From positions 5,326,001-5,390,000 of the forward strand of contig NZ_CP136520.1 in the NCBI RefSeq assembly GCF_032813545.1: 64,000 nucleotides of DNA, given 5' to 3'. Below, one piece after another: positions 49,501-63,092 of the stretch. Each line of letters opens with the position of its first letter. Position 1 is the first letter of the stretch. The DNA is from Nodosilinea sp. E11 (GTDB taxonomy: Bacteria > Cyanobacteriota > Cyanobacteriia > Phormidesmidales > Phormidesmidaceae). Position numbers and translations under genes: made by a program. The notes under the pieces are model-generated. The model was not told the origin of the DNA and did no database searches. It saw only the letters and a list, made by a program, of their open reading frames with translations.

Positions 49501-49652
49501 GGAATATTTCCGGCACCGGCCTTGGTTTAGCAATCGCTAAGCGGGCCGCCGAAGCCCATCAGGGGCGCATCTCGTTGGTGAGTGAAGTGGGCCTAGGCAC
49601 CACCTTTACTGTTGTTTTACCCCTTGTACTGTGGAGTGACCATCATGGCTAA
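46560..49652 (+). CDS. Four-CBS sensor histidine kinase
   Basis: 1030 residues from the ATG at 46560. Two CBS pairs (about 15-300; GLVTDRDAIRLV, HMPLVDHDQRPVRLITI, GVVLRQDVLRF, LGVISQTDLLYSLD), GAF (about 330-490), long coiled coil, two PAS modules (about 545-660 and 670-785), HisKA (H810 in MASHEFRTPLTTILA) and HATPase_c (about 910-1025, [12 protein letters not shown]). No receiver of its own. The CBS pairs suggest adenine-nucleotide sensing. Its stop overlaps by 8 bases the start of a REC-HATPase gene, so the receiver there is the expected phosphate acceptor. Confidence 0.9.
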   Translation: MPNLQTADFSQSHNPEVLWSLGMAPLMVPQTATLREVISELNRDTIQGHSCVLVVQGHQLVGLVTDRDAIRLVVNSVDLDTPVAQHMTDSLTVLPVSETVSALDILNLMRQRQIHHMPLVDHDQRPVRLITISSLQQALQPPHVLKLQRAHSRMTTTLVTVHPTDSALAAATLLADYQVSCVAVVDPTAAGVLLGVVLRQDVLRFQSRHTDLAQLPVRAIMRDPQLCLKPDDSLWLAYQEMSQHRLPCLVVGTPEQQPLGVISQTDLLYSLDLRELQASFSHLWQSFKQSDNEKVEIWKSHSSELERLVQGRTEQLEEQAKCDRLLTTLTQRIHESLEVQDVLATTVGDVRQLLGADRALIYRFETTASGTVTVESVVPPWNSLLGYTIEDTCFEKHWSEAYRYGRVQAVEDIHRAGLSPCHIDMLEALQIQANLVVPIVCDHQLWGLLVIHQCGDVRRWRDWEIRLVEQLARSVAIAVRQSELYQKLQEDLEARKQYEIHLQQLNDQLEQRVEERTACWRQVTEKLRQEVDQRRQAEQTLAKTNQQLQAVLHAVPAMVSWVSKDGLYLGCNRRLAASFNLLPANFVGQHLGFLGEASPFCQFAQDFLASNANIISQEMQFSVKGIASHWLLVAQKYDQGGAAVFVGLDISDREQAKAALQTSEIKFRSLVEQTNDWVWEIDREFSFNYINPRASEILGCPAEAILNHRFTDFMADDEAVRFSTIWALLVGQRQPFTQLEATCLRPSGEAVILEISGSPVFNVKGEFEGYRGITRDITERKQIEVDIRKALTREKELSDLKTRFISMASHEFRTPLTTILASAETLERYAHKFTPEKQQTVLKRIQTSVHHMIGLLNDVLTVGKAEAGKLACTLAPIDLHRFCRDLVEEVQFAQVSTASPIEFTATGDRFQVLADEKLLRHILLNLLSNAVKYSPEHTPVTFAVTCGDGESIFQVSDRGIGIPPADQSRLFGAFHRAENVGNISGTGLGLAIAKRAAEAHQGRISLVSEVGLGTTFTVVLPLVLWSDHHG

Positions 49653-50730
49653 AATTCTGGTGATCGAAGACGAAGCTGGGGTACGCGACAGCATCGTTGA
49701 TATTCTCAATGCCGAAGACTTTATTGTTGATAGCGCCGCCAACGGCGAAGAGGGCCTGCGCCAAATTCACGAATTTAAACCCGATATGGTGATCTGTGAC
49801 GTGATGATGCCCGTGCTGGATGGCTTCGGCGTCTTGCAGCAGATTCGCCAAGATCCGGGTTTGGCTACCTTGCCCTTTGTGTTTCTCACCGCCAAGGCCG
49901 AGCGGATCGACTTTCGCAGCGGCATGGATTTAGGCGCCAACGACTACCTCACCAAACCCTTTACCCACGACGACTTGTTGAGGATGATTCGGACCCGGTT
50001 GGGGGCCAGCAGTGCTGTCCAAGAAAAGACGCAGCAGCAGCTCAGCGCCCTGCGCAGCAGCATTAGCACCGCCCTGCCCCGCGAACTCGGTGCGCCCATG
50101 CGCGAAGTGCTCAAGCTAGCCACTACCCTGATCGAGGAGGCCGAAACCCTGGAACCTGAAGCGGTAGTAACCCTGGCTAAGGCCATTCACCGCAATGTTC
50201 AACGCACGGCGCGCTTGACCCAAAATGTGATGCTGTTTGCCAAGCTAGAACGGCTCAGCCCCGAGCAAATTTCTGCCCAGGCCCTGCATCGCCAGCCCCT
50301 TGCTCGCGCCGACGAGATCATCACCGAGATTGCCCAGGCGCTTGCCGCCGACTACCTGCGCGAGGATGACCTGGAGATTTCTCTAGAGCAATTGGTCTTG
50401 CCCATGTCTGAGTCGCAGCTGCGCAAGGTCTGCGAAGAGCTGCTCGACAATGCCTTTAAGTTTTCTGAGATTGGCACCCCAATTAAGGTATTTGGGTCGC
50501 GGGGCGATGGCAAGGTCACCTTCTACGTGATCGACTATGGCCAGGGCATGACCCCCGACCAGATCGCCAATGTGGGGGCCTATCTCCAGTTTGAATCCGA
50601 GACAGAAGCTGCTGGCACTGGCCTGGGGCTCACAATTGCCAAACGCTTAGTCGAACTCTACCGGGGCGAATTGCTGATCGAGAGTATTCCTGGACAGCAG
50701 ACTATCGTGCGAGTGGCCCTGCCCGATTAG
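49645..50730 (+). CDS. Response regulator-HATPase protein with degenerate HisKA
   Basis: 361 residues from the ATG at 49645. Receiver (about 1-120, D52 in VICDVMMPVLDG, K in TKPF), a HisKA-like helical region (about 130-215), and HATPase_c (about 240-358) with N-box ELLDNAFKFSE, IDYGQGM and AAGTGLGLTIAKR. In the HisKA-like part the usual LPHELRTP sequence reads LPRELGAP, so the phospho-acceptor His is Arg (R146). It probably cannot autophosphorylate in the normal way and may act as phosphatase, scaffold or output partner. It is translationally coupled to the four-CBS kinase. Confidence 0.88.
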   Translation: MAKILVIEDEAGVRDSIVDILNAEDFIVDSAANGEEGLRQIHEFKPDMVICDVMMPVLDGFGVLQQIRQDPGLATLPFVFLTAKAERIDFRSGMDLGANDYLTKPFTHDDLLRMIRTRLGASSAVQEKTQQQLSALRSSISTALPRELGAPMREVLKLATTLIEEAETLEPEAVVTLAKAIHRNVQRTARLTQNVMLFAKLERLSPEQISAQALHRQPLARADEIITEIAQALAADYLREDDLEISLEQLVLPMSESQLRKVCEELLDNAFKFSEIGTPIKVFGSRGDGKVTFYVIDYGQGMTPDQIANVGAYLQFESETEAAGTGLGLTIAKRLVELYRGELLIESIPGQQTIVRVALPD

Positions 50731-50782: not shown

Positions 50783-53700
50783 TTATTGCATTAGCTCATC
50801 GACTTTTTGAAGCAGCTCTGGTGTCGAGAACCCTTTGGTCAGGTAGTCGGTAGCGCCGACTCGGCGGGCTTCTTCAAACCAGTCCTCCGATAGTCTAGAA
50901 GAGACTACCAGCACTGGCGTCTGAATGCCTGTTTGACGACAGCGATCGATCAGGGTGAACCCATCCATATGGGGCATTTCAATGTCGGTGATGATCAGCG
51001 CTGGTAAAGGGTTGGTCTGGAGCCAGTTCCAGGCCTCTAGGCCATCGGCACAGGTGTGGGTTTCGTGGCCGTGGGTGGTCAGGCTGGCCTCCAGGCGACG
51101 GCGCATCAGGGCGGCATCATCGGCAATCAAAATGGTGGGGGTAATGGCGATCGTTGCTTCGGCGATGGGGTCGGCTGAGCCCGCTGCCGCCACCTGTTTC
51201 GGCGCAAGATGCAGTCGTTCCACCAGGGCTGGGGCGTTGAGTACGGGTAGCAACGTGCCGTCGGGTTGCAGACTCACGCCCATCAGGCCTTCGGCAGGCT
51301 GGAGGGGAGAAGGGAGCGAATTAATGATTAGATCGGTCTGCCCCAGCAAATCATCGGCGATCAGCCAGGCCCTACGCCCCCCTAAACTAGACTGCACCGA
51401 GACACAGATGGCGGTGTTGTCGAGCGATCGCCGGTTGCCCTGGGGCTGCCAGTATTCCAGCAGATCTAACCCAGGGATGGGGCCGTCTTCTGTCTCGATC
51501 TGCCAGGAATATAGGGCAGTGCGATCGTTCACAGGGCTGGCGGGCAGCGTCTCAAACAGGGTGGTGGTGCGAATATCTTCGGTGGGAATGGCAAAGCTGC
51601 GATCGCCCGCCTGAAGCACCACACAAGAGACCAGCAGGTGAGGCACCGGAAACTGAAGATGAAAGGTGGTGCCGCTGCCCAATGCCGTGTCGAGGGTGAG
51701 CTTGCCGCCGAGTTTTTGCATCTGCGCCACAACGACATCCATGCCCACCCCTCGCCCAGAGAGGGCACTCACCTGGGTTTCAGAACTAAACTCGGGTTGG
51801 CAGATCACCGCTAGCAAATCGGCCATTGTGTCGGTCTGGGTGAGGGGTAGCCCCAACGATTGAGCCCGAGCCTGAATCGCTGGGGCATCGATACCGCGAC
51901 CGTCATCCTCAACGTCGAGCTGGTAGGCGCTGCCCTGACGCCGCAGGGTGAGGGTGAGGGTTCCCTGTTCGGGTTTGCCCAGCCGCTGGCGATCGGTCAC
52001 GGGTTCGATCGCATGGTCAAAGGCATTGCGAATTAGGTGCAGGAGGGCGGGCTCTAGGCTGCGAGCCGTGCCCACGTCTAGCTCGATGCGTTCTCCCACC
52101 ACCACCAGCCGGACGGGCTTTTGGAAGCGGGTGGTCAGATCGCGGAGAATGGCCCGCGCCCGAAACCCCAGATTGCTAAACGGCACGAGCCGACTGTCTT
52201 CCACCGTCGTCTGGAGCTTGAGCACGCGACCGTCGAGGTACTGGAGGCTGTCGGCCATTTGCTGGGTAGACTTTCCGGCCTCGGCCCCCAGCTCAGACAA
52301 CCTCAGGCTGGTTTCTAGCAGCCGGTTAACGGTCGTATAGCCTTGGCGATAGCGCTCTAGGGTGGGGCGACTGCCACCGCGCACCGAAATTTTGAAGTTG
52401 TCGAGCAGGGCATAGTCTTCTTGAATCTGGCGCAGCTGGGTCGCGTACTGAACGCCCTCCTGGGCTAAGGCCACCATCTGTAAAATTTGAGCCTGGAGAA
52501 CCTGATACAGGCCCTGGGTGCTTCTGGCCGACAGCAGCGTGTCAATTAAATCTTGGGCAGATTGATCTAGCTTGGCCAGGGGGACTGGAATCTGCACAGT
52601 ATCTGGGCTAGCGTCTGCGGCTGGGGTCGTCTGATCGAGGTTTGGAGCTGCCGCCCCATCGATTGCCTCTGGAGTGGAGACCCGATCGAGGCGAGATGCT
52701 AAAGGCGATCGCTCGTCGTCATCCACAGGGGCAGCATCAAACGGCTCAATCACCCAGGTTTGGGCATTGGGTAGTAGCACCCAGTCTTCTGTGGCGGTCA
52801 GTGGTGGCTTGAGCTCAGCGGCTAAGGCATTGGAGCTGTCATCTGCGGTGGTGGTCAGGGGCTCTGTCGCTGGATCAGCGGGGTGCAGATCGGCGGTTTC
52901 CTTCGAGCGATCCAGATCTAGATCTAGATCCAGGCCATCGAGGCGATCGAAAAAGTGGTCTACGTCTCCGAGTAAATCCCCGCTATCGACCACCGCAACC
53001 TGGGAGTTGAGCCGATTGTCAGCCCCATCTGGGTCGGCAACGGCTGCCGGGGCGGATGCTACCTGGTCTTCACTCAGCACTAGCTCAAAGGCAACCGGTT
53101 GCCCAGCCTGGCTGGCACAGTCTTTTAAGGCTTGAAACAGGCGGGGCCATTGGGTGCGCCAGAGGGGGATACTGGGTTGGCTCAAAAGGGTCTCAGCCTG
53201 ATGGAGTAAGGCCTGCCAACCGGTGGAGAAGCCTAGGTCTCGGCCAATCTGGTCGAGCTGATCAATCAGGTGGCGGGCGCTGAGAAGCATCGATTCGGGG
53301 AGATAACCCGAGACCGGCAGCGTTTCTAGGGCAATCTCCAGATCTAGCACGACCAGTTCTAGCCCCTGCTGGGCAAAGTCCTGCTGAATCTGCTGTTGCT
53401 CAGACCACTGCGGCAGGTAGGCCTGCTGCACCTGATCCCGGATCTGCTGTAGGCGCTGCAGGGCGGGTTGCACCTGGGCCTGAGTCTGGGCCTGAGTCTG
53501 GACCTGAGTTTGGGGCTGATGGGCGATCGCCAGGGTGGCCGCGATCAGTTCGCCGGCTTCTACCAACATGTCGTTGAGCAGGTGGTCGTCTAGGGGCGGG
53601 GCCGTGGTCAGATGGCGCAGATCGGAGAGCAGGTCTTCGAGGCGGGTGGCGACCTGCAAAACCCCTTCGGCCCCTACGGTTACGGCCCCCCCTTTGATCG

Positions 53701-53917
53701 TGTGAATGACGCGATACAGGATCTGGATATCTTTGGCCCAGGTTTGAGGCTGTAGCTGCGCCGCCTGATCGAGGTAGGTTTGCAGGCCCTTTTGGGTATC
53801 GACCTCGAACATACTGCGCAGTTCCTGCTGGAGTTGCGCTTCCATTAGATCCGCAGACTCATCGGTGGCCTGGGTGCCGTTATCCGGGGCCGAAGCGGAT
53901 TGGTCAGGATTAAGCAT
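50783..53917 (-). CDS. CheA-type hybrid histidine kinase (HmpE/PixL/PilL-like)
   Basis: 1044 residues. HPt domain at the N-terminus (about 28-130, H72 in VIHTIKGG), a long Asp/Gln-rich linker with a short run of alternating Asp-Leu (LDLDLDLD), a dimerisation region, HATPase_c (about 585-730; IRNAFDHAIE, DDGRGID, SGRGVGMDVV), CheW-like domain (about 735-880) and C-terminal receiver (about 920-1040, D978 in TDIEMPHMDG). It is the histidine kinase of the chemosensory operon and phosphorylates the CheY-like and PatA-like regulators (family knowledge). It is last in the operon, 67 bases after the second MCP gene. HmpE, PixL and PilL homologues cannot be told apart by sequence alone. Confidence 0.92.
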   Translation of the reverse strand: MLNPDQSASAPDNGTQATDESADLMEAQLQQELRSMFEVDTQKGLQTYLDQAAQLQPQTWAKDIQILYRVIHTIKGGAVTVGAEGVLQVATRLEDLLSDLRHLTTAPPLDDHLLNDMLVEAGELIAATLAIAHQPQTQVQTQAQTQAQVQPALQRLQQIRDQVQQAYLPQWSEQQQIQQDFAQQGLELVVLDLEIALETLPVSGYLPESMLLSARHLIDQLDQIGRDLGFSTGWQALLHQAETLLSQPSIPLWRTQWPRLFQALKDCASQAGQPVAFELVLSEDQVASAPAAVADPDGADNRLNSQVAVVDSGDLLGDVDHFFDRLDGLDLDLDLDRSKETADLHPADPATEPLTTTADDSSNALAAELKPPLTATEDWVLLPNAQTWVIEPFDAAPVDDDERSPLASRLDRVSTPEAIDGAAAPNLDQTTPAADASPDTVQIPVPLAKLDQSAQDLIDTLLSARSTQGLYQVLQAQILQMVALAQEGVQYATQLRQIQEDYALLDNFKISVRGGSRPTLERYRQGYTTVNRLLETSLRLSELGAEAGKSTQQMADSLQYLDGRVLKLQTTVEDSRLVPFSNLGFRARAILRDLTTRFQKPVRLVVVGERIELDVGTARSLEPALLHLIRNAFDHAIEPVTDRQRLGKPEQGTLTLTLRRQGSAYQLDVEDDGRGIDAPAIQARAQSLGLPLTQTDTMADLLAVICQPEFSSETQVSALSGRGVGMDVVVAQMQKLGGKLTLDTALGSGTTFHLQFPVPHLLVSCVVLQAGDRSFAIPTEDIRTTTLFETLPASPVNDRTALYSWQIETEDGPIPGLDLLEYWQPQGNRRSLDNTAICVSVQSSLGGRRAWLIADDLLGQTDLIINSLPSPLQPAEGLMGVSLQPDGTLLPVLNAPALVERLHLAPKQVAAAGSADPIAEATIAITPTILIADDAALMRRRLEASLTTHGHETHTCADGLEAWNWLQTNPLPALIITDIEMPHMDGFTLIDRCRQTGIQTPVLVVSSRLSEDWFEEARRVGATDYLTKGFSTPELLQKVDELMQ

Positions 53918-53984: not shown

Positions 53985-56357
53985 TTAGGGGTAAACCTCG
54001 ATCGCATCAGCCGCCCCATCGGCAGCGGCAGCGGCCTCAGGTGTTGACGGCGGGAGGGAAATATGGACCTGGGCGGGCAGTTGAAAATAGGTGACATTGC
54101 GATCGAGGTTGTGGGCGATCGCCGCCAGCGACTGGGACTGGAGGCGAATTGCATGGGCCTGGGTGGAGGTAGCAGCAGCGACCTGGGCCATTGGCTGAAT
54201 CGACTCTAGGGTGGTTTCGGCCCCGCCTGCGATCGCCTGACTGACTTGGGTTACCTGCTGCCCCAGATCAGTCACCTGAGCCATTGCGGTGCGAATGTGT
54301 TCGAAGGTTTGATTGGTCTGGCTGATCCCGGCGGTGAGGCTGTCGGCCTGCTGGCTAAGGCCCTCCACGTCGTGGTTTAGACCCGACACTACGGTTTGAA
54401 TTTGTTCGGTGCGGCGCTGCAAGACCACCAGACTCTGGTTGGTTTCGGCGGCCAGATCATTCACCTGGCTGGCAATGGTCTCAAATTCCCGAGTAACGGC
54501 GGCAAATTGGGTGGGGTCTTGCTGTTCAGAGGCGCGGGTAGACAGCATCGAGGCATTGAGGGCCAGCACCCGAGTTAGGGCGGCAATCCGCTTCTGGTCT
54601 TTCACGAACTGGGTGGCGAGATCGACGTAGCTGGTCAGGGTTTGGGTACGCCCAACCATCTGCTGGGTTTCTCGCTGCAAACTGCCCACGTCGCTGGTCA
54701 TCGCCTCTATGTCCTGCTGTCCCTGGGCCATGGCCGTCTGACCCTGGGCGATCGCATCGAGGGTCGCCGTTACCTGCTGCTGCTGGTTTTGGCACAGGGT
54801 TTGGATGGCTTCTACCAGCGACTGCACCCGGCTGACCGACTGTACGTGCTGATCGGTCTGGCTGGCCATAGTGACCGCCAGCGTTTTTACATCGCCCGCC
54901 GACTGGGTGACCTCGGTGGCTGTGGCCAAGGCCGCCGCCAGCATCTGACCCAGCCGCTCAATCAGTTGGTTAAAGGCGGCGGCCAACTGGCCCATCTCCG
55001 TCGGGTTGACCGCTGCTGTGATGGTCAAATCTCCCATTCTGACGGCGGAAAAGGCGCTCAGGAGCTGGTCTAGCTCGTGCTGCAACGCCTGAGTTCGGTC
55101 GTCTTGAACGGTGGCGTGCTGGCCAAACTGCTGCTCTAGCTCAGCCCGAGTTTGCTCTAGGGTGGCAAAGGACGATTGCAAGTGTTGGGCTAACTGGTCA
55201 ATGGCGGTGCTGAGAACCGCCAGTTCCCCTTGGCTCTGCCCCAGGGGAGGGGGGGCAAAGTCGCCTTGCCTCAGGTTTTCGATCGCTTGGGTGGCGGCGA
55301 CAATGGGGGCGGCGGTGCGTTTGGCAAACCAGACCAGCGCGATCGCCCCGGCTCCGGCTACCGCTGCCGTGCCCAGCAGCAAGAGCAGCACCTGCTGCCG
55401 GATTGGGGCCAGGGCGATCGCCTGCTCGGTGGTGAGCAGTGCCCCCAGGTTAGGATCGCCCAGGCCATCGATGGTCTCCACGGGGGCGTAGCTGACCAGG
55501 GCCTGACCACCGGCTGCTGGGAACAGGGCGGCCGTGGGCTGCCGGGAGGCGTGCTGTTCTGCCAGGCCATCAAAGGTCTGGGCGACTGTGCTGGCCAGGT
55601 AGTTGGGCTGGCTACCGGCCACAAACGCGCCCTCTCCGGTGAACAGATGCCACTGGCTGCCGGTTGCTAAATGGCGATCAAACAGCGGCGCGATCGCGGT
55701 TAGGGGAATTTGCATCCAGATCGCCCCGATGGGCTGATTGCTGGTGCGATCGATCACCGGGGCTACCAGTTCGACATGCCCCTGGTTGTTGGCCGCTGCA
55801 TCTAGCGTCGCGACAGTCGTCTGGCGCGACTGAATCGCCTGCTGAAAAAAGGGGCGATTGCCCAGCTCGGGCAGTGGATTGCTGGCGTCAGACTGAACTA
55901 GGGGCTGGCCCTGGGGGTCGAGAAAGGCCATGCTGATGGCTTCGCTCTCCGCTACCACCTGATTCAGCACTTGTTTTTTTTCAGCCGATGACGTCGCCAG
56001 GCGGCGGTCACGTTCTGCAAACATGGCCAGGCTGGCAACCAGCTGGGCGTCCCGCGATCGCTCCGCCAGCAACTCTCCTAGGCGATCGGCCAGCAGCTGA
56101 GTCTGCACTAGCTGCTGCTGTTCGGCGTTGCGAAGGCCAGCCTGGCGCGTCATCCAGGCCGTCAGGCCACCGATGGTCACCACCGGCACTATCCCCACGG
56201 CGATCGCCAGCAGCATCGCCTGCCCCTGCAGCCCCCGCCCAGTCCTTGACCGCCCTTGGGGGCGGCGCTCCTGCGGGCTTTCCCCAGACAGATTTCTGGC
56301 GGGAGTTTGAGGTGTTTGTTCAGCCGCTTGAGACCGAGGCGGAATGGTCGTTGACAT
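53985..56357 (-). CDS. Methyl-accepting chemotaxis protein with periplasmic sensor
   Basis: 790 residues. TM1 (about 45-68, AMLLAIAVGIVPVVTIGGLT), a periplasmic Cache-like domain (about 75-300; FLDPQGQPLVQSDASNPLPE, APVIDRTSNQPIGAIW), TM2 (about 310-335), HAMP, then the coiled-coil signalling part with a cyanobacterial-type tip (LTRVLALNASMLSTRASEQQ). The tip differs from the E. coli consensus but matches other cyanobacterial receptors. It should detect a small molecule outside the cell and control the CheA-like kinase next to it. AGGTAA precedes the ATG. A palindromic repeat separates it from the other receptor gene upstream. Confidence 0.9.
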   Translation of the reverse strand: MSTTIPPRSQAAEQTPQTPARNLSGESPQERRPQGRSRTGRGLQGQAMLLAIAVGIVPVVTIGGLTAWMTRQAGLRNAEQQQLVQTQLLADRLGELLAERSRDAQLVASLAMFAERDRRLATSSAEKKQVLNQVVAESEAISMAFLDPQGQPLVQSDASNPLPELGNRPFFQQAIQSRQTTVATLDAAANNQGHVELVAPVIDRTSNQPIGAIWMQIPLTAIAPLFDRHLATGSQWHLFTGEGAFVAGSQPNYLASTVAQTFDGLAEQHASRQPTAALFPAAGGQALVSYAPVETIDGLGDPNLGALLTTEQAIALAPIRQQVLLLLLGTAAVAGAGAIALVWFAKRTAAPIVAATQAIENLRQGDFAPPPLGQSQGELAVLSTAIDQLAQHLQSSFATLEQTRAELEQQFGQHATVQDDRTQALQHELDQLLSAFSAVRMGDLTITAAVNPTEMGQLAAAFNQLIERLGQMLAAALATATEVTQSAGDVKTLAVTMASQTDQHVQSVSRVQSLVEAIQTLCQNQQQQVTATLDAIAQGQTAMAQGQQDIEAMTSDVGSLQRETQQMVGRTQTLTSYVDLATQFVKDQKRIAALTRVLALNASMLSTRASEQQDPTQFAAVTREFETIASQVNDLAAETNQSLVVLQRRTEQIQTVVSGLNHDVEGLSQQADSLTAGISQTNQTFEHIRTAMAQVTDLGQQVTQVSQAIAGGAETTLESIQPMAQVAAATSTQAHAIRLQSQSLAAIAHNLDRNVTYFQLPAQVHISLPPSTPEAAAAADGAADAIEVYP

Positions 56358-56415: not shown

Positions 56416-56530
56416 TTATACCGATACCGAATCCTGTCTGGCTATCCCCGATTGCTAGGGGCATTGCACGGCAATGCCCCTACGGGGTACCTGTTTTGAG
56501 TCGGGGTTTCCCATGGCGGATTTCGGATTA
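56416..56530. repeat. Palindromic dispersed repeat, copy 3
   Basis: TTATACCGATACCGAATCC at the left, TATCCCCGATT, a 12-bp-armed inverted core (TAGGGGCATTGC...GCAATGCCCCTA), GAGTCGGGG, and a right end GGATTTCGGATTA. Homologous to copies at 12838 and 31420. Its last three bases are the TAA stop of the longer MCP gene, so it lies between two co-directional receptor genes and could affect expression of the downstream one. Confidence 0.75.
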
Positions 56531-59434
56531 CAGGGGGTGATCGGCAGCCCCAGCAGCAGACGCGGCTATAGACACAGCACTAGGGCTAGCCGCTAAGGCG
56601 CTGGGGGCAACGCCATTGGGGGTAGCGGGTAGCTGGAAGAACTGAATGGTTTCGAGCAGCTGGTAAGACAGGGCCTCCATCTGCTCTGACTGGAGGCGGT
56701 TGTTCTGGGTGAACTCGGCGGTTTGGGTGGCAATGTCGGTAATGGTACGCACCACGGCGGCGGCTTCCTGCACCGCTCCCACAATGTTTTGGCTCACCTG
56801 GGTGACCGCTGTTTCGGCCTCGACGGCGGCGACCGTCACCGTCTGCACATCGCTAAATACCTGCCGCGATTGGCCAACACCCTCGGTAAACTCCTCCACC
56901 AGCCCCCCCAGCCGCTGCACATCAGCATCGACGGCAAACACAACGCTTTGAATCTGGGCGCTGCGCTGTTCTAGCGTGGTCAGGCTGTTGTTGGTTTGCT
57001 GGGCTAGCTGGCTAACCTGGTTGGCAATGGAGCTAAATTCTCGCGCTGCCACCACAAACTGGCGGGGGTCCCGCTGTTCGGCGGCGCGGGCGGCCACCAG
57101 CGATGCGTTCAGAGCCAGGGTTTGGGTGAGGGAGGCCACCTGGGTCTGGTCTTGAACAAACTGATCGGCCAGGCCGACAAATTCGCCCAGGGTCTTCATC
57201 TGCTGAATAATGCGATCGCTGCCTTCCTGCAAAATGCCAATACCCGAGGTGAGGTTGGTAATCGCCTGCTGACCTGTGGCCACCGTTGTTTGCACCGCTT
57301 GCAGCGAGGCGCTGGTGGTTGCGACCTGGCGGACGGTGGCCTCGGCTAGGGTCTCGACTTGGGCCGTCAGCTTTAGAATCTGGTTTACCCCGGTGACCTG
57401 CTGGTCGGCATTGGCCGCAATTAGGCTAGCCTGAGTTTTTTGCTGGTTTGCGCCCGCTGTCACCTGCTGGGCCGTTTCGGTCACTTGCTGGAGTACATCG
57501 GCCAGCCGCTCAATCAGGCGGTTGAAGGTATCGGCGACCAGACCGGTGGTGCGATCGCTCACCCGAGCCTGCACCGTCAGGTTGCCCTCTTCTACCTCCG
57601 ACACTACGTCTAGCAGGTGGCTCACCTCTCCCTGCAAGAGTTCGCTTTCTAACGCCAGCGAAATTAGGTTGGCCACCGAGCCAATAAAGGTTTGCTCCTC
57701 GGCCCGCCAGTCGCGGGGGCTGCCGTGCTCGCAGCGCAGACTGCCGACCACGGTACCGGTAATCTGAATCGGCACCTCTAGCAGCGAAACGGTCGTGGGG
57801 GCCAGGGCATTTTCAGCCTGTAGCTCTCGGCCCGCCGGATGGTCGGCGACACGGGTGACGCTCAGGGTTTGATTTTGGGCGATCGCCGCAAAATAGGTCG
57901 GCACCTCGTCGGTAGCCAGAGCGGTAACGATGTCGGCCTGCCTGTCCCCCTGCTGATAGCGGGTCAGGCACAGCAGCCGAGTTTGCTCTGGCTGCATCAG
58001 CCAAACGCTCACGCCATCGAGGCTCAGAGTCCGGGCGATCGCTTCGCTAAAGGAGGTCGCCGCCGCTTGGGCATCGCCCTGAATCAGCGCTTCGTGACGG
58101 GCCAGATCTGCCAGCACGTCGTTTTGTAAGCCCAGCTGCTCAGCATTCTGCCGCAGCGTCGCCAGCAACTCCTGAATCTGGGCTCCCATGCGGTTCACGT
58201 TCATGCCCAAAATGGCCAGTTCGTCATTGCCTCGCACCGGTACACGGGCATCGAGTTGACCCTGGCCGAGTAGTTCAACGGCCTTTGCCGCTTGGCTGAC
58301 CGGTCTGGTGGCGCGTCGAGCCAGCACAATCCCCAACAGTACTGCTGTGACTCCGGTCAGCAGCGTACCCACTAAAATCGTCTGCAGCAGCTGGCGCTGG
58401 GGCAAAAAGGCTAAGTCTGTACTGGTGGAGGTGACCACGCTCCAGTTCAGGGCATCAAACCCCTGGAGAGGCGCGTAGGCATTGAGAAATTCCTGGCCTT
58501 GAACTGTCTCAATCCAGGCTTGGCGCTGTTTCTCAGCATTGGCATCGGCGAACCGGGTTAGCAGGTCGGCTAGGGGCAACCCCACCTGAGGGTTCTCAGG
58601 ATCGACGGGCAGACTTTGGAAAATCTCGCCGGAGCTGTCCACCAATCGGTATTGAGTCTCTTTGCCCAAACTAGCGGTGCGGAGAATAGCATTGCCGACA
58701 AATTCCACCGGAATCTTAGCCGCGACCACCCCCAGCACTGTCCCCGCTGTATCTTTGACGGGTACTGCGACATAGATAGCCGCTGCGCTGGCTAGGGCAG
58801 ACTCCACCACCACCGGCTCACTAATCACTGGGGCCTGGGTCGACAGCACCTGCTGAAAATAGGTAGCTCCTCGCTGGTTCACCTCTTGAGCAGAGCCTGT
58901 AGACTGCACCAGAACATCGCCATTGACGCTGAATATCCCCAGACTGGAGTAGGTGCGATAGTCTTGCACAAACTGCGTCAGCTCTCGAGACAACTGCGCA
59001 GCGATCGCGGCCTGTTCTCTCGGCTCTAGATCGCTGGCAAACAGACCTGATTCCTGGGTGATATTGGCGACGGTGCTGGCATTGGCAACGCGCTCCTGCA
59101 AAAACCGGCGCAGCTGGTCAGAGAGCTGATCAACTCCAGAAATTTCTTCTTGAGCAATTCGCTCAGTGATGGATTGGTCAGCCGATCGGTACGCCACGTT
59201 ACCAACCACCAGCACCGGCAGCACGCCAAACACTGCCGCTAGAACCGTGGCTTTGAAACCAATGCCGAGGCCTCGTCGGGGCAAACTGGGTTCATTGGGT
59301 ACGACCTGAAGTACAGGAGCATTGTCTTCCGCTTTCCGACCGGCAGCGGAGGGAGATGCGTCATTGTTGATATCGACCGGGGCATCGATAGGGTAGTCGG
59401 AGGCTTCCCAGGTATTCTGGCCAGGGACAGTCAT
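56528..59434 (-). CDS. Methyl-accepting chemotaxis protein with dCache and GAF domains
   Basis: 968 residues from an ATG preceded by AGGAG. TM1 (about 66-88, ATVLAAVFGVLPVLVVGNVA), a large dCache_1-type periplasmic domain (about 92-345; SLGIFSVNGDVLVQS, YRLVDSSGEIFQSLP), TM2 (about 352-375), HAMP (about 376-430), GAF (about 455-610), then the signalling coiled coil (about 640-930; LTQTLALNASLVAARAAEQR). The combination of an outside ligand sensor with an inside GAF domain allows dual input. The GAF sequence has no conserved chromophore Cys that I can identify. It follows the solute-binding gene after 126 bases, so the two may act together. Confidence 0.91.
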   Translation of the reverse strand: MTVPGQNTWEASDYPIDAPVDINNDASPSAAGRKAEDNAPVLQVVPNEPSLPRRGLGIGFKATVLAAVFGVLPVLVVGNVAYRSADQSITERIAQEEISGVDQLSDQLRRFLQERVANASTVANITQESGLFASDLEPREQAAIAAQLSRELTQFVQDYRTYSSLGIFSVNGDVLVQSTGSAQEVNQRGATYFQQVLSTQAPVISEPVVVESALASAAAIYVAVPVKDTAGTVLGVVAAKIPVEFVGNAILRTASLGKETQYRLVDSSGEIFQSLPVDPENPQVGLPLADLLTRFADANAEKQRQAWIETVQGQEFLNAYAPLQGFDALNWSVVTSTSTDLAFLPQRQLLQTILVGTLLTGVTAVLLGIVLARRATRPVSQAAKAVELLGQGQLDARVPVRGNDELAILGMNVNRMGAQIQELLATLRQNAEQLGLQNDVLADLARHEALIQGDAQAAATSFSEAIARTLSLDGVSVWLMQPEQTRLLCLTRYQQGDRQADIVTALATDEVPTYFAAIAQNQTLSVTRVADHPAGRELQAENALAPTTVSLLEVPIQITGTVVGSLRCEHGSPRDWRAEEQTFIGSVANLISLALESELLQGEVSHLLDVVSEVEEGNLTVQARVSDRTTGLVADTFNRLIERLADVLQQVTETAQQVTAGANQQKTQASLIAANADQQVTGVNQILKLTAQVETLAEATVRQVATTSASLQAVQTTVATGQQAITNLTSGIGILQEGSDRIIQQMKTLGEFVGLADQFVQDQTQVASLTQTLALNASLVAARAAEQRDPRQFVVAAREFSSIANQVSQLAQQTNNSLTTLEQRSAQIQSVVFAVDADVQRLGGLVEEFTEGVGQSRQVFSDVQTVTVAAVEAETAVTQVSQNIVGAVQEAAAVVRTITDIATQTAEFTQNNRLQSEQMEALSYQLLETIQFFQLPATPNGVAPSALAASPSAVSIAASAAGAADHPL

Positions 59435-59560: not shown

Positions 59561-60676
59561 TTAGGTATCGGAGAAAATCAGTTCGGCAAAGCTGCGCTCG
59601 TTCACGCTATTCCAGCGATAGATCCCCCCTCGAAAGGCATTCCAGTTATCGTAAATTTGCTTGAAGCTGGCATCCTGACTGGCGTACTCGGCATAGAGAT
59701 CATTGGCGGCCTTGCGGGCTCCTTGAATGATTTCTGGGGTGTAGGAAATCAGCTCGGTGCCAGAGCTGATCAGCCGTTGCAAGGCCTCTCGGTTGGCCGC
59801 GTCATACTCGGCCAGCATCTTGACTTGAGCTTCAAAGGCGGCTAGCTCTAGCGCCTGACGGTACTCCACCGGCAGCCGATCCCAGGCGGCCTGGTTGACG
59901 ATGAGTTCGTAGGTTGTGCCCGGTTCGTGCCAGCCGGGATAGTAGTAATAGGGGGCGTACTGGTTGAGACCCAGCTTTTCATCTTCGTAAGGCCCGACCC
60001 ACTCTGCCGCGTCTATATTGCCGCGTTCTAGACCCAGCAAAATCTCGTTGGGCGGCATGTTTTGGGCCTCAGCCCCCATCCGCTTAAGGACTTCGCCGCC
60101 CAGCCCCGGCATGCGCATTTTAATCGCCTGCATTTCGCTGACGGAGTTGACCTTGTTGCGAAACCAGCCGCCCATTTGGTTGCCGGTGCTGCCAGCGGGG
60201 AAGTTGAGCACGCCAAAAGCGCTGTAGATGCCCCGAATCAGCTCTAGCCCCCCGGCTCCGTAGAGCCAGGCCACGTGCTGGTGGGGGTTGAGGCCAAAGG
60301 GCATGCTCGTGGCAAAGGCAAAGGCTCGGTTTTTTGAGGTGTAGTAGTAGCCAGCCGTGTGGCCACACTCAGCCGTTCCAGCCTGCACCGTATCGAGAAT
60401 TTCTAGCGGGGGTGCAATGCCCCCTGCCGGAAAGGCCGTAATAGAGAAATTGCCCTGGGTTAGCTCGCTGATGCGATCGCACATCCGTTGAGCCGTGCCA
60501 AAGACAATGTCTAGGTTTTCGGGCCAGCTGGTGGCCATGCGCCATTCGATACGAGGGTTGCCCCCGCCACTGCTGCTGTTAGGAGTAAATACCTTGGGAG
60601 AACTGCTACAGGCAGAAGCCACCCCAGCCCCGATCGCCCCAAGGGTCAACTGATTAAATAGACGTCGACGTTTCAT
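59561..60676 (-). CDS. TRAP-type (DctP/TakP-like) solute-binding lipoprotein in chemotaxis operon
   Basis: 371 residues. The N-terminus MKRRRLFNQLTLG has a twin-Arg-like motif and continues to a lipobox VASAC, so a Tat- or Sec-exported lipoprotein. DctP-fold landmarks: WRMATSWPENLDIVFGTAQR, FPAGGIAPPLEILDTVQAG, MPFGLNPHQHVAWLYGAGG, MRMPGLGGEVLKRMG (the ligand-binding Arg region), and WVGPYEDEKLGLNQYAPYY with PGWHEPG, as in the alpha-keto-acid/lactate binding TakP group. No DctQ or DctM membrane genes are adjacent. Its place between cheW and a dCache receptor gene suggests that it presents a carboxylate ligand to the receptor and does not serve transport (inference). Confidence 0.88.
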   Translation of the reverse strand: MKRRRLFNQLTLGAIGAGVASACSSSPKVFTPNSSSGGGNPRIEWRMATSWPENLDIVFGTAQRMCDRISELTQGNFSITAFPAGGIAPPLEILDTVQAGTAECGHTAGYYYTSKNRAFAFATSMPFGLNPHQHVAWLYGAGGLELIRGIYSAFGVLNFPAGSTGNQMGGWFRNKVNSVSEMQAIKMRMPGLGGEVLKRMGAEAQNMPPNEILLGLERGNIDAAEWVGPYEDEKLGLNQYAPYYYYPGWHEPGTTYELIVNQAAWDRLPVEYRQALELAAFEAQVKMLAEYDAANREALQRLISSGTELISYTPEIIQGARKAANDLYAEYASQDASFKQIYDNWNAFRGGIYRWNSVNERSFAELIFSDT

Positions 60677-60788: not shown

Positions 60789-61232
60789 TCAGACCGCCAA
60801 CGGTATCCAACGGCGAGGCTGCCAAAGCTCTGCCGGGACAATGTCAGGATTAAATGGCTCGATCGTTGAATCTTGAGCGAGCTGCTCGGCGGTGCAGTTG
60901 CCCACTAGCTGGTCGATCACCAGCGCAATCCCCGCTAGCGGGGAACTGGTATTTAGCTGCACAGCATTAAACACTTCCCGCGTTACGCCGCTGACTCCCT
61001 CTAGCAACAACTGTAGGGTTACCAGCGGCACCAGCTGACCCTGAACATGCACCACCCCTAAAAGGCCGGGCTGATAAAAGGGAAGGCTCAGTATCTGCGA
61101 TCGCTCTACTAGCATCACTTCGGCAATTTCGGTAGCAGGAAAAGCTAGTTGTCGACTGCCCACCTGAGTCAGAAAGTAGGTGCTATCGGGCAGAGCTAAG
61201 GAATCAAGCTCGACGTCAAGAGAGTCCGTCAT
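60789..61232 (-). CDS. CheW-like coupling protein
   Basis: 147 residues from the ATG at 61232; a TTG at 61253 would add 7 residues. CheW domain pattern: TYFLTQVGSRQLAFPATEIAE, ILSLPFYQPGLLGVVHVQGQ, LVPLVTLQLLLEG, IALVIDQLVGNC. It couples the two receptors to the CheA-like kinase encoded further down the operon. It starts 29 bases after the CheY-like gene. Homologous in place to HmpC/PixI/PilI. Confidence 0.85.
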   Translation of the reverse strand: MTDSLDVELDSLALPDSTYFLTQVGSRQLAFPATEIAEVMLVERSQILSLPFYQPGLLGVVHVQGQLVPLVTLQLLLEGVSGVTREVFNAVQLNTSSPLAGIALVIDQLVGNCTAEQLAQDSTIEPFNPDIVPAELWQPRRWIPLAV

Positions 61233-61261
61233 AGGAAAATAATTAAACAACAAATGTAGAT

Positions 61262-61618
61262 TTAGAGTTTTTGCAAAACCTCTGCCAGCCGCTCTCGACT
61301 CACAGGCTTAGTAATGTAGTCGTTGGCTCCCGCTCTTTTGAGGCCATACTTAACTTCTACAGGGGTCTTTTTGCTGGAGCAAAAAACTACGTTTTGCTGG
61401 GCTGTCACCTGGTTAGTGCGAATCTCTCGCAAAAATTTATAACCATCCTGTTCGGGCATCACAATATCTAAAAATAAGCAGCTGTATTCACCGGTAGAGA
61501 GCTTTTCTACAACGCCTTCTGTACTGTCAGATGCTTCTACTCTATGCCCCATATCCTCAAGTAATGTTGACAAAAACTGCCTATCTACAGCACTATCGTC
61601 AACCACTAAAATTTGCAT
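61262..61618 (-). CDS. CheY-like response regulator
   Basis: 118 residues from the ATG at 61618, which has AGAGGTG upstream; an upstream in-frame start would add 28 residues with no similarity. A single receiver domain with D51 in FLDIVMPEQDGY, the acidic pair in VVDDSAVD, and K in TKPVSRE. It is the second gene of the chemosensory operon and corresponds in position to HmpB/PixH/PilH. No output domain, so it acts by protein interaction. Confidence 0.9.
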   Translation of the reverse strand: MQILVVDDSAVDRQFLSTLLEDMGHRVEASDSTEGVVEKLSTGEYSCLFLDIVMPEQDGYKFLREIRTNQVTAQQNVVFCSSKKTPVEVKYGLKRAGANDYITKPVSRERLAEVLQKL

Positions 61619-61808
61619 ATACACCTCTTTTTGATCTCTGATGCTTTTTGGTTCTACAAGCCAAACTTCTAGCCGAATTTGCGATATCCGGAACTTAATC
61701 AAAAAAGTCTTTTGAGAATGCGATAACTTAAAGCAGTAAGTGCTCTAAGCCAAGATTCGATGAAGAGTAGAGTTATTGTCGATTGACTACTCATCTTAGA
61801 TAATCTCG

Positions 61809-61886: not shown

Positions 61887-63092
61887 TTAGAATTTTTCCT
61901 TCTTTATAGGCACTGCTAATTTTAATATTCCTCTTAACTCTGTTTCAAACTTGGGAATTTCTTCTGTAGTAAGGGGCTTAGATAAAAACTGGCAACCGCT
62001 CCATTGAGATCGCCAATTGTTCGAGAGCGTACGCTCTGCCGTTAGCATAATTAAGGGAGTAGTCGCAATCTGTGGATAGCGCCGAATTTGCTTCAATAAA
62101 TCAAATCCAGAAATATTGGGCATGTTGATATCTATGAAAACAATGGCTGGTTGTGTCTCCAGCATAATTTCTACCGCAGTCACCGGATCATCATGCGATC
62201 GCACCTGGTATCCCCAACTAGAAACCAATTGCTTGAACTGCTTTAGCATAACGGGAGAGTCATCGACAATTAAGACTTCAGAGGCTGCTTTGCGGGGCGG
62301 CAACTCAACCTCAATCAATCCTTGTTCCGCTAACTTTGCCACACCTCTAGCAATTTCTAAAGTGTCTTGAGCTAGAGCAACTGTGATAGAATTTAGGGTT
62401 TCACCGTGGGAAATAAGGGCTCTCAGATATTTTTTCTGACGATCGGTTATGTCGGATTCTCTGATCGCTTTCTCATGAATGAAAAGCTTGCTATCTAGAT
62501 TGGGGATGACACGTTTAATCTGCTCCCAAATGAGCTGCCGACGACGTGACTCGGCCAGTATTTCTGAAATCTCAAAGCCAGGAGTTAGACCTGCAATTGA
62601 GAGATCAGTCTCTGGTTTAAACTGTGCTTGACCAGAATGACTAAATAGCATCTGATCTAAGTCTTGCAGTACTTTGAGTCGTAGAGCCTGTCGAACCTCC
62701 TCGGGCTGAATTATCTTCAACTCATATAAGCGGCTCAAAAAAACTGGTAATGGCTCTAGTGGGCGATCGCAATCATCCAAATGCAAGTCTTCTTTGAGGC
62801 CGAGTACAGTACTTTGAACTGGTTCACTGCGAACCCGAAAAATATAGCGCTCAATTATCTCGAGTAGATAATCGATAGATAAAGGCTGTTGTCCTGAGAA
62901 GACAACTTGCCCTCCCACTAACCCTAGCCACCAGGATTTTTCGGCTAGATTACAGGCATCCTCATCGAAGAAATGATGCCAATATCCAGTCAGAGCTAAA
63001 TCGTTCTGATGTTCAAGTTTGTAGGCTAAATTTTGAGAGTTAAACGAAAATTTCTGAGAATGAAACGAGCTGATTTGATGACGGGTAATCAC
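61887..63092 (-). CDS. PatA-type response regulator (HmpA/PixG/PilG-like)
   Basis: 401 residues. The N-terminal part (about 1-260) has the PATAN-type pattern: LTGYWHHFFDEDACNLAEKS, WWLGLVGGQVVFSG, YIFRVRSEPVQS, FLSRLYELKIIQPEEVRQAL. A C-terminal receiver (about 270-390) has VDDSPVM, D321 in VFIDINMPNISG and K in SKPLTTEE. PatA-type proteins head cyanobacterial chemosensory operons and control pilus-dependent motility or heterocyst pattern. The start is GTG at 63092 with no obvious Shine-Dalgarno; no ATG occurs early in the frame. The receiver is at the C-terminal end, as usual for the family. Confidence 0.87.
   Translation of the reverse strand: MITRHQISSFHSQKFSFNSQNLAYKLEHQNDLALTGYWHHFFDEDACNLAEKSWWLGLVGGQVVFSGQQPLSIDYLLEIIERYIFRVRSEPVQSTVLGLKEDLHLDDCDRPLEPLPVFLSRLYELKIIQPEEVRQALRLKVLQDLDQMLFSHSGQAQFKPETDLSIAGLTPGFEISEILAESRRRQLIWEQIKRVIPNLDSKLFIHEKAIRESDITDRQKKYLRALISHGETLNSITVALAQDTLEIARGVAKLAEQGLIEVELPPRKAASEVLIVDDSPVMLKQFKQLVSSWGYQVRSHDDPVTAVEIMLETQPAIVFIDINMPNISGFDLLKQIRRYPQIATTPLIMLTAERTLSNNWRSQWSGCQFLSKPLTTEEIPKFETELRGILKLAVPIKKEKF

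Follow-up and report, generated by a model that had tools for sequence, protein, structure and literature searches.

A TRAP-type solute-binding protein as the probable keto-acid co-receptor of a chemoreceptor in a cyanobacterial type IV pilus type chemosensory cluster

A chemosensory gene cluster of Nodosilinea sp. E11 includes a gene for a TRAP-type solute-binding protein (SBP). With a probability of about two in three, this protein is a keto-acid-binding lipoprotein that acts as a co-receptor of the chemoreceptor MCP1 in a type IV pilus type chemosensory system and serves no TRAP permease. The cluster lies in the window, i.e. the whole stretch of 64,000 nucleotides that was analysed.

In the proposed mechanism, the TakP-like SBP would close around a cation and a small 2-oxo (alpha-keto) acid, and the closed protein would dock on the periplasmic dCache domain of MCP1. 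Docking would alter the activity of the CheA-CheW array. The array would in turn set the phosphorylation of the CheY-like and the presumed PatA-like regulators, whose target would be the type IV pili. Presumed steps of this scheme are the choice of MCP1 over MCP2 for docking, the direction of the signal and the output via pili.

The original prediction held that the system detects an organic acid through the SBP. This is the best reading, and it is supported by a complete keto-acid pocket, by the finding of no dctQM and by the conservation of the SBP with the receptor sensor; we infer the docking and the exact ligand.

The gene cluster and its binding protein

Table 1. Genes of the chemosensory cluster in the window, in the order of the minus strand.
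Feature	Coordinates	Strand	Pfam support
Response regulator, C-terminal receiver	61887..63092	(-)	Response_reg at 273-379
CheY-like receiver protein	61262..61702	(-)	Response_reg, 83.9 bits
CheW-like coupling protein	60789..61253	(-)	CheW, 35.2 bits
SBP, TRAP-type solute-binding protein, DctP/TakP family	59561..60676	(-)	DctP (PF03480)
MCP1, dCache_1-HAMP-GAF-MCPsignal chemoreceptor	56528..59434	(-)	dCache_1 79.3, HAMP 47.2, GAF 46.1 bits; MCPsignal 23.9 bits, below the cut-off of 34.6
MCP1 sensor, approximately residues 60-345	58400-59257		
MCP2, second receptor, HAMP-MCPsignal	53985..56357	(-)	Pfam
CheA hybrid kinase with Hpt, HATPase, CheW-like and receiver domains	50783..53917	(-)	Pfam

The genes are arranged 5' to 3' as REC-CheY-CheW-SBP-MCP1-MCP2-CheA. 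The SBP gene begins 112 bp past cheW and ends 126 bp ahead of MCP1, all on the minus strand; its predicted place between cheW and a dCache-GAF receptor gene was confirmed by the coordinates and by Pfam. The cluster has CheY, CheW, MCP and CheA genes. For the other regulator, Pfam names the receiver only, and the N-terminal ~265 aa had no Pfam match at E 0.001. By gene order, this regulator is presumed to be PatA-like (PATAN). The CheY frame begins with TTG, and an ATG near 61621 looks the likelier start. The sensor of MCP2 has no Pfam name in the window; its counterpart in G046, a genome of another genus, carries dCache_1. A single-sequence model of the MCP1 sensor reached a pLDDT of 39.8 and was set aside. 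A PDB search with the whole of MCP1 returned four sequences, each aligning to the MCP signalling part.

Strand, spacing and conserved order suggest that the cluster is read as one transcript. A terminator or an internal promoter that would split off the SBP gene was considered and rejected: no terminator-like site was found on the minus strand in the gaps between cheW and SBP and between SBP and MCP1, and promoter-like sites numbered 9, compared with 6.1 (sd 2.8) in shuffled sequences. On the plus strand of the window, a receiver-HATPase protein (49612-50730), possibly a further regulator, is convergent with cheA at a distance of 52 bp. Outside the window, the same genome holds four further matches to the CheA core with 28-32% identity (at C7 976990, 3059786, 3070068 and 3117674). 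Hence, the CheA of the cluster is one of about five chemosensory kinases.

The SBP frame comprises 371 aa with an ATG start. It matched PF03480 over residues 49-333 with 192.4 bits (E 1.4e-56), the family cut-off being 23.4. The closest solved sequence was the ketoacid-binding protein 7ug8 (E 1.3e-110), which is described in its record title as a Synechococcus CC9311 solute receptor with alpha-ketovaleric acid and calcium. TakP (2hzk) ranked fourth among the solved sequences (E 2.2e-94). Modelling of the window protein together with 19 relatives gave a mean pLDDT of 87.2; the model superposed on 7ug8 with Z 49.0 (rmsd 1.1 over 329 residues) and on TakP (2hzl) with Z 47.6 (rmsd 1.4 over 332). 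The model predicts a long C-terminal helix (336-368), with confidence dropping toward the helix end, which resembles the swapped helix 326-365 of TakP (PMC1839085).

In TakP, pyruvate and sodium are held by Tyr100, Gln156, Arg177, Glu214, Trp215 and Glu240 (PMC1839085, section 7). All six cation- and keto-acid-binding residues are common to both proteins, the SBP equivalents in the alignment being Tyr111, Gln167, Arg188, Glu225, Trp226 and Glu251. Profile, fold, the six pocket residues and the long C-terminal helix thus all place the SBP in the DctP/TakP family. The same set of residues is found in 78 of 100 aligned SBP rows. From the pocket and the solved relatives, the best guess for the ligand class is a 2-oxo acid of about 3 to 6 carbons. 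The pocket of the chemosensory SBP of G046 reads YQREIQ, with two of six residues lost, so its ligand may differ; a ligand common to all four chemosensory SBPs described below is doubtful.

The leader of the SBP is Tat-like plus lipobox-like (MKRRRLFNQ...GVASAC), and the protein probably faces the periplasm on a membrane anchor. The label of lipoprotein given in the original prediction is therefore plausible from the leader. As a hallmark of a sensory role, the tether was dropped: a regular expression found a lipobox-like cysteine in 90 of 100 SBP homologues, so the leader is not peculiar to the chemosensory copy and, as a family trait, carries no weight in the sensory argument.

Orphan status and conservation with the MCP1 sensor

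The genome (6,105,571 bases in 7 contigs) had a completeness of 100 and a contamination of 3.54 by the tool's figures. In a Pfam profile search of the whole genome, DctP gave one match, the SBP itself. Neither DctM (PF06808) nor DctQ (PF04290) gave any match, window included. This negative result is meaningful because the same models matched 7 (DctM) and 5 (DctQ) of 14 control genomes. The predicted lack of DctQ and DctM in the window was borne out and extends genome-wide, where the proposed search for dctQM, including a hidden copy, found none with either model. The DctQ and DctM that a functional TRAP transporter would have in the genome were thus not found for this SBP.

Of 96 related genomes (own included), 49 had a relative of the SBP and 52 had DctM over the family cut-off, some by partial matches only. 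The DctM matches of the relatives at ~1e-3 to 1e-7 were mostly partial, covering ~100-200 positions within frames of 600-700 aa, and look like other carriers. The DctM matches in G046 (3.2e-7, 30.9 bits, over the cut-off) and in G038 (8.8e-4, under the cut-off) are of this partial type; by this DctM search, the chemosensory SBPs of both genomes are therefore probably orphans as well. G022 has a second SBP with DctQM adjoining. Beside the chemosensory SBP itself, no DctQ or DctM match was found in any of the four genomes G022, G038, G046 and our own.

The SBP was 96% identical in G022 and 95% in G038, and the next nearest among the 96 genomes was at 56%. Both G022 and G038 have the whole cluster in the same order with the SBP in the same slot. 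G022 also has an extra receiver-like stretch between the first response regulator and cheY (L112 2913-3314), absent from the window. In G046, the order is REC-CheY-CheW-MCP1-MCP2-CheA-SBP; the SBP is 46-47% identical and follows cheA after 148 bp on the same strand. As the gene lies after cheA in G046 and after cheW in the other three, it has moved and yet stayed with the cluster.

When the MCP1 sensor (residues 60-345) was used as the query, 21 of 63 genomes of the order had a match, and exactly four reached an identity of 54% or more. All four of these carry the SBP in the cluster. The gene-order check called for by the original prediction thus found the SBP gene conserved with a receptor having an extracytoplasmic-type sensor, as expected for an SBP-assisted chemoreceptor. 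Among the candidates scored in a 386-genome sample of the phylum (up to six per genome; G022, G038 and G046 not in the resulting list), the best other match to the MCP1 sensor was 38% (G219). The distribution of the SBP is patchy: within the genus, two of 26 genomes have it, and two other genera contribute one genome each. As three of the four genomes have SBPs 95-100% identical, they represent at most about two independent histories.

The cluster also occurs without the SBP. With the CheA core as the query, six of the 63 genomes (own included) had a relative at 62% or more, and at least five further genomes of the 386-genome sample had one at 49-52% (up to three candidates scored per genome). 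G041, G031 (where the contig begins at CheY), G219, G376 and G425 have clusters of this gene order in which CheW adjoins an MCP1 with another sensor, and none of the five clusters includes an SBP. The loci of G079 and G093 consist of just a receptor and CheA. No SBP was found in any of twelve less similar receptor loci (L182-L191, L195, L196).

Table 2. Identity (%) to the window proteins in clusters with and without the SBP.
Genome	SBP	MCP1 sensor	MCP1 signalling	CheA core
G046	with	53.5	66.9	68.1
G041	without	29.4	64.3	64.6
G031	without	30.1	67.5	63.6
G219	without	38.1	50.8	51.1

G046, G041 and G031 are near-equally distant from the window in the CheA core and in MCP1 signalling, and the sensor is held only where the SBP is (Table 2). 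In G376 and G425, both without the SBP, the MCP1 sensors are quite different (3.5 and 23.1% identity). The same trend, weaker, is seen in the GAF domain (51.7 in G046 vs 39.1 in G041 and 39.7 in G031) and in the MCP2 sensor (34.3 vs 24.4 and 26.2). Part of the effect may therefore come from a closer kinship of the cluster. The MCP1 counterpart of G425 (L317 3117-9389) has 2090 aa, with the MCP signalling match at 582-743 and a long C-terminal part without a Pfam match. Its interpretation as a many-GAF Ptx receptor was dropped, as Pfam gave no GAF and the PDB nothing at 1e-10.

The SBP had dN/dS values of 0.033 and 0.068 against G022 and G038, and the other six genes of the cluster had values of 0.080-0.205 (Nei-Gojobori). 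The SBP is the most constrained protein of the cluster and under strong purifying selection, as if both the binding site and a contact surface mattered.

Related binding proteins and their neighbours

SBP matches were collected at 245 loci, counting duplicates; of these, only the loci of our genome, G022, G038 and G046 had a match to CheW, MCP or the CheA core within 3 kb. A general tie of the SBP family to chemotaxis genes was rejected after a survey of 80 family loci: matches to the CheA, CheW or MCP proteins of the window were absent from the 3 kb around all 80. With many short loci and cyanobacterial queries, this negative is weak. DctQ or DctM was present in 43 of the 80. In six, the sole neighbour found was a kinase or receiver protein matched weakly (23-33% identity); one more locus combined such a match with DctQM.

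The neighbours of 100 SBP rows were sought with the seven window proteins and five other reference proteins. This set leaves out fragments of <290 aa, frame-broken genes (among them L144, L168 and L269), the truncated second SBP of L143, the rows L171, L193 and L194, and L270 with its 521 aa; the surroundings of about two thirds of 92 match rows were read. DctQ or DctM was found within 3.5 kb of 36 rows, and none of the sought neighbours was found for 48, many of these on short contigs. Four rows are in chemosensory clusters, five adjoin a histidine kinase of one kind (four of these in two tandem pairs), four form two tandem pairs adjoining a HAMP-SpoIIE protein and three are in tandems with no sensor seen.

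TRAP-type SBPs lie directly upstream of the histidine kinase in G041 (L134 8012-12588), G106 (L261 9709-14088), G297 (L267 7309-10632) and G035 (L168 6807-10915). They are in tandem in three of these four loci, and the SBP genes of G035 are broken. The kinases of G041 and G035 read CHASE3-HAMP-HisKA in Pfam; identity to the G041 kinase is 50% for that of G106 and 42% for that of G297. Moreover, tandem SBPs lie upstream of a HAMP-SpoIIE phosphatase in G046 (L162 5531-11098) and G053 (L165 3698-11347), the domains of both SpoIIE proteins being assigned by Pfam. They are followed downstream by a DUF6272-like protein (just below the cut-off) and a STAS-like protein, these two assigned by Pfam in G046 only. 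The gene order is reminiscent of SiaABC modules. In all five complete tandem pairs (L134, L162, L165, L261, L262), one SBP has a lipobox-like cysteine and the other does not, according to the regular expression. As TakP is a helix-swapped dimer, a tethered SBP heterodimer is conceivable.

In a careful tree of 44 rows, the four chemosensory SBPs were on one side of a branch with a bootstrap of 100 and an SH-aLRT of 98. Together with ten kinase-side, SpoIIE-side or cut-tandem SBPs (one tandem among these ten ends at a contig edge), they were separated from the 30 other rows (DctQM-linked, isolated and the tandem L262) with a support of 99/97. The SBP of G046 has a long branch; forcing its row to group with 28 non-sensory rows cost 19.4 log units (p-AU 0.044). 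The wider sensory group had a support of 93 (unstarred) in a quick tree of 57 rows, and in a quick tree of all 100 rows a branch with a support of 95 set it apart only when the long rows L169 and L170 were counted in. Both the 57- and the 44-row tree include the complete set of 16 sensory or tandem rows, plus one in two or one in three of the remaining rows; L169 and L170 are in neither. Constraining the 14 sensory rows alone in the 100-row tree gave a likelihood 51 units better than the search had found, with a p-AU of 0.936, which by itself is no proof of a clade. L262 (tandem SBPs, no sensor adjoining) falls with the transporter side and was excluded from the sensory group after its placement had been seen. 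A single origin of the sensory SBP lineage is likely, not proven, with long branches in play.

We see an even chance that a lineage of cyanobacterial TRAP-type SBPs gave up transport and came to serve as detachable sensory heads for at least three outputs. These would be the type IV pilus type chemosensory array of the window, histidine kinases and SpoIIE/PP2C phosphatase modules. The kinases and phosphatase modules would mostly go with tandems of one lipoprotein and one SBP without a lipobox cysteine.

Alternative readings and known systems

Alternatively, the SBP could supply a permease, either one of a different transporter class or a TRAP-like one that escaped detection; lying in the cluster would then serve only to co-regulate uptake with movement. 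Such an arrangement is conceivable, as a TAXI-type SBP is reported for a novel class of binding-protein-dependent transporter (PMC12344293) and the second SBP of G022 has DctQM adjoining. We nevertheless consider it unlikely: DctM and DctQ matches are missing from our genome and from beside the chemosensory SBP in all four genomes, the presence of the SBP tracks the receptor sensor, and the trees place it with receptor-linked SBPs, not with DctQM-linked ones. A little less probable still is a co-receptor role at MCP2, or at receptors whose genes lie elsewhere, instead of at MCP1. SBPs can act on several receptors. MCP2 belongs to the same cluster, its counterparts in G046 and G041 have dCache_1 sensors, and in G046 the SBP gene does not adjoin MCP1. 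However, the MCP2 sensor of G046 is much less similar to that of the window than the MCP1 sensor is, and MCP2 is less constrained along with the SBP. MCP1 could also bind ligand on its own.

The patchy presence of the SBP gene would fit a functionless passenger that was inserted and carried along, but the gene has the lowest dN/dS of the cluster and persists at identities as low as 46-47% and in a shifted position, which makes this very improbable. Similarly remote is the reading that the SBP senses an ion (Na+ or Ca2+), or a 2-oxo acid that the cell itself leaks from its metabolism, and not an environmental attractant; it is consistent with the binding of pyruvate together with a cation by TakP (PMC1839085) and with the calcium in 7ug8 according to the record title. 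The role of a keto-acid co-receptor of MCP1 remains the preferred reading.

SBP-assisted chemoreception is known, e.g. from MBP and Tar of E. coli; in such systems, the SBP is usually also part of a transporter, in many cases one of the ABC type. As there, the proposed target of the loaded SBP is the periplasmic portion of a chemoreceptor. In contrast, the SBP of the window is of the TRAP type, its genome is one without DctQM found, and its gene is inside the chemosensory cluster. TakP of Rhodobacter sphaeroides (2hzk/2hzl) is drawn with its membrane partners TakQ and TakM (PMC1839085), whereas no such partners were found for the SBP. This makes it a clear case of a TRAP binding protein kept without a transporter found.

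A further parallel is BctC-BctE of Bordetella, in which a TctC-type SBP of a tripartite transporter family signals to a sensor kinase (PMC9602780). Both systems pair a tripartite-family SBP with a receptor. The Bordetella protein, however, belongs to the TctC and not to the DctP family, its partner is a sensor kinase and not a chemoreceptor, and it also serves a complete transporter. The same source counts 13 of 22 SBP families as interacting with receptors. For surplus TctC proteins, signalling and chemotaxis are raised as roles in PMC5812351, where the passages concerned do not name TRAP SBPs.

The components of tax1 are given as PixG, PixH, PixI, PixJ1 and PixL (PMC5812497). Operons of the Tax/Pix/Hmp type share with the window a set of two response regulators, CheW, receptors and CheA; the cluster of the window adds the SBP gene, and its MCP1 is a dCache-GAF receptor. 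The GAF of PixJ1 has a bilin-binding Cys-His motif. MCP1 has a GAF domain too, and this motif was not seen when the MCP1 sequence was inspected by eye. Sensing by the type IV pilus arrays of cyanobacteria is largely open besides light; for the Hmp system, a 2025 review describes the stimulus as unknown, perhaps proton motive force (PMC12288463). Here, sequence alone names a candidate ligand class, a putative binder and a putative receptor partner, and raises the possibility of organic-acid chemotaxis in a phototroph. Among the matches listed from the open-licence literature, judged by titles and the starts of abstracts, none dealt with a TRAP SBP encoded in a chemosensory operon of cyanobacteria. 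The mechanism itself is already known; what appears to be new is that a cyanobacterial chemosensory operon has a dedicated SBP of the TRAP family, and the novelty lies in the protein family used, in its separation from transport and in the system that it feeds.
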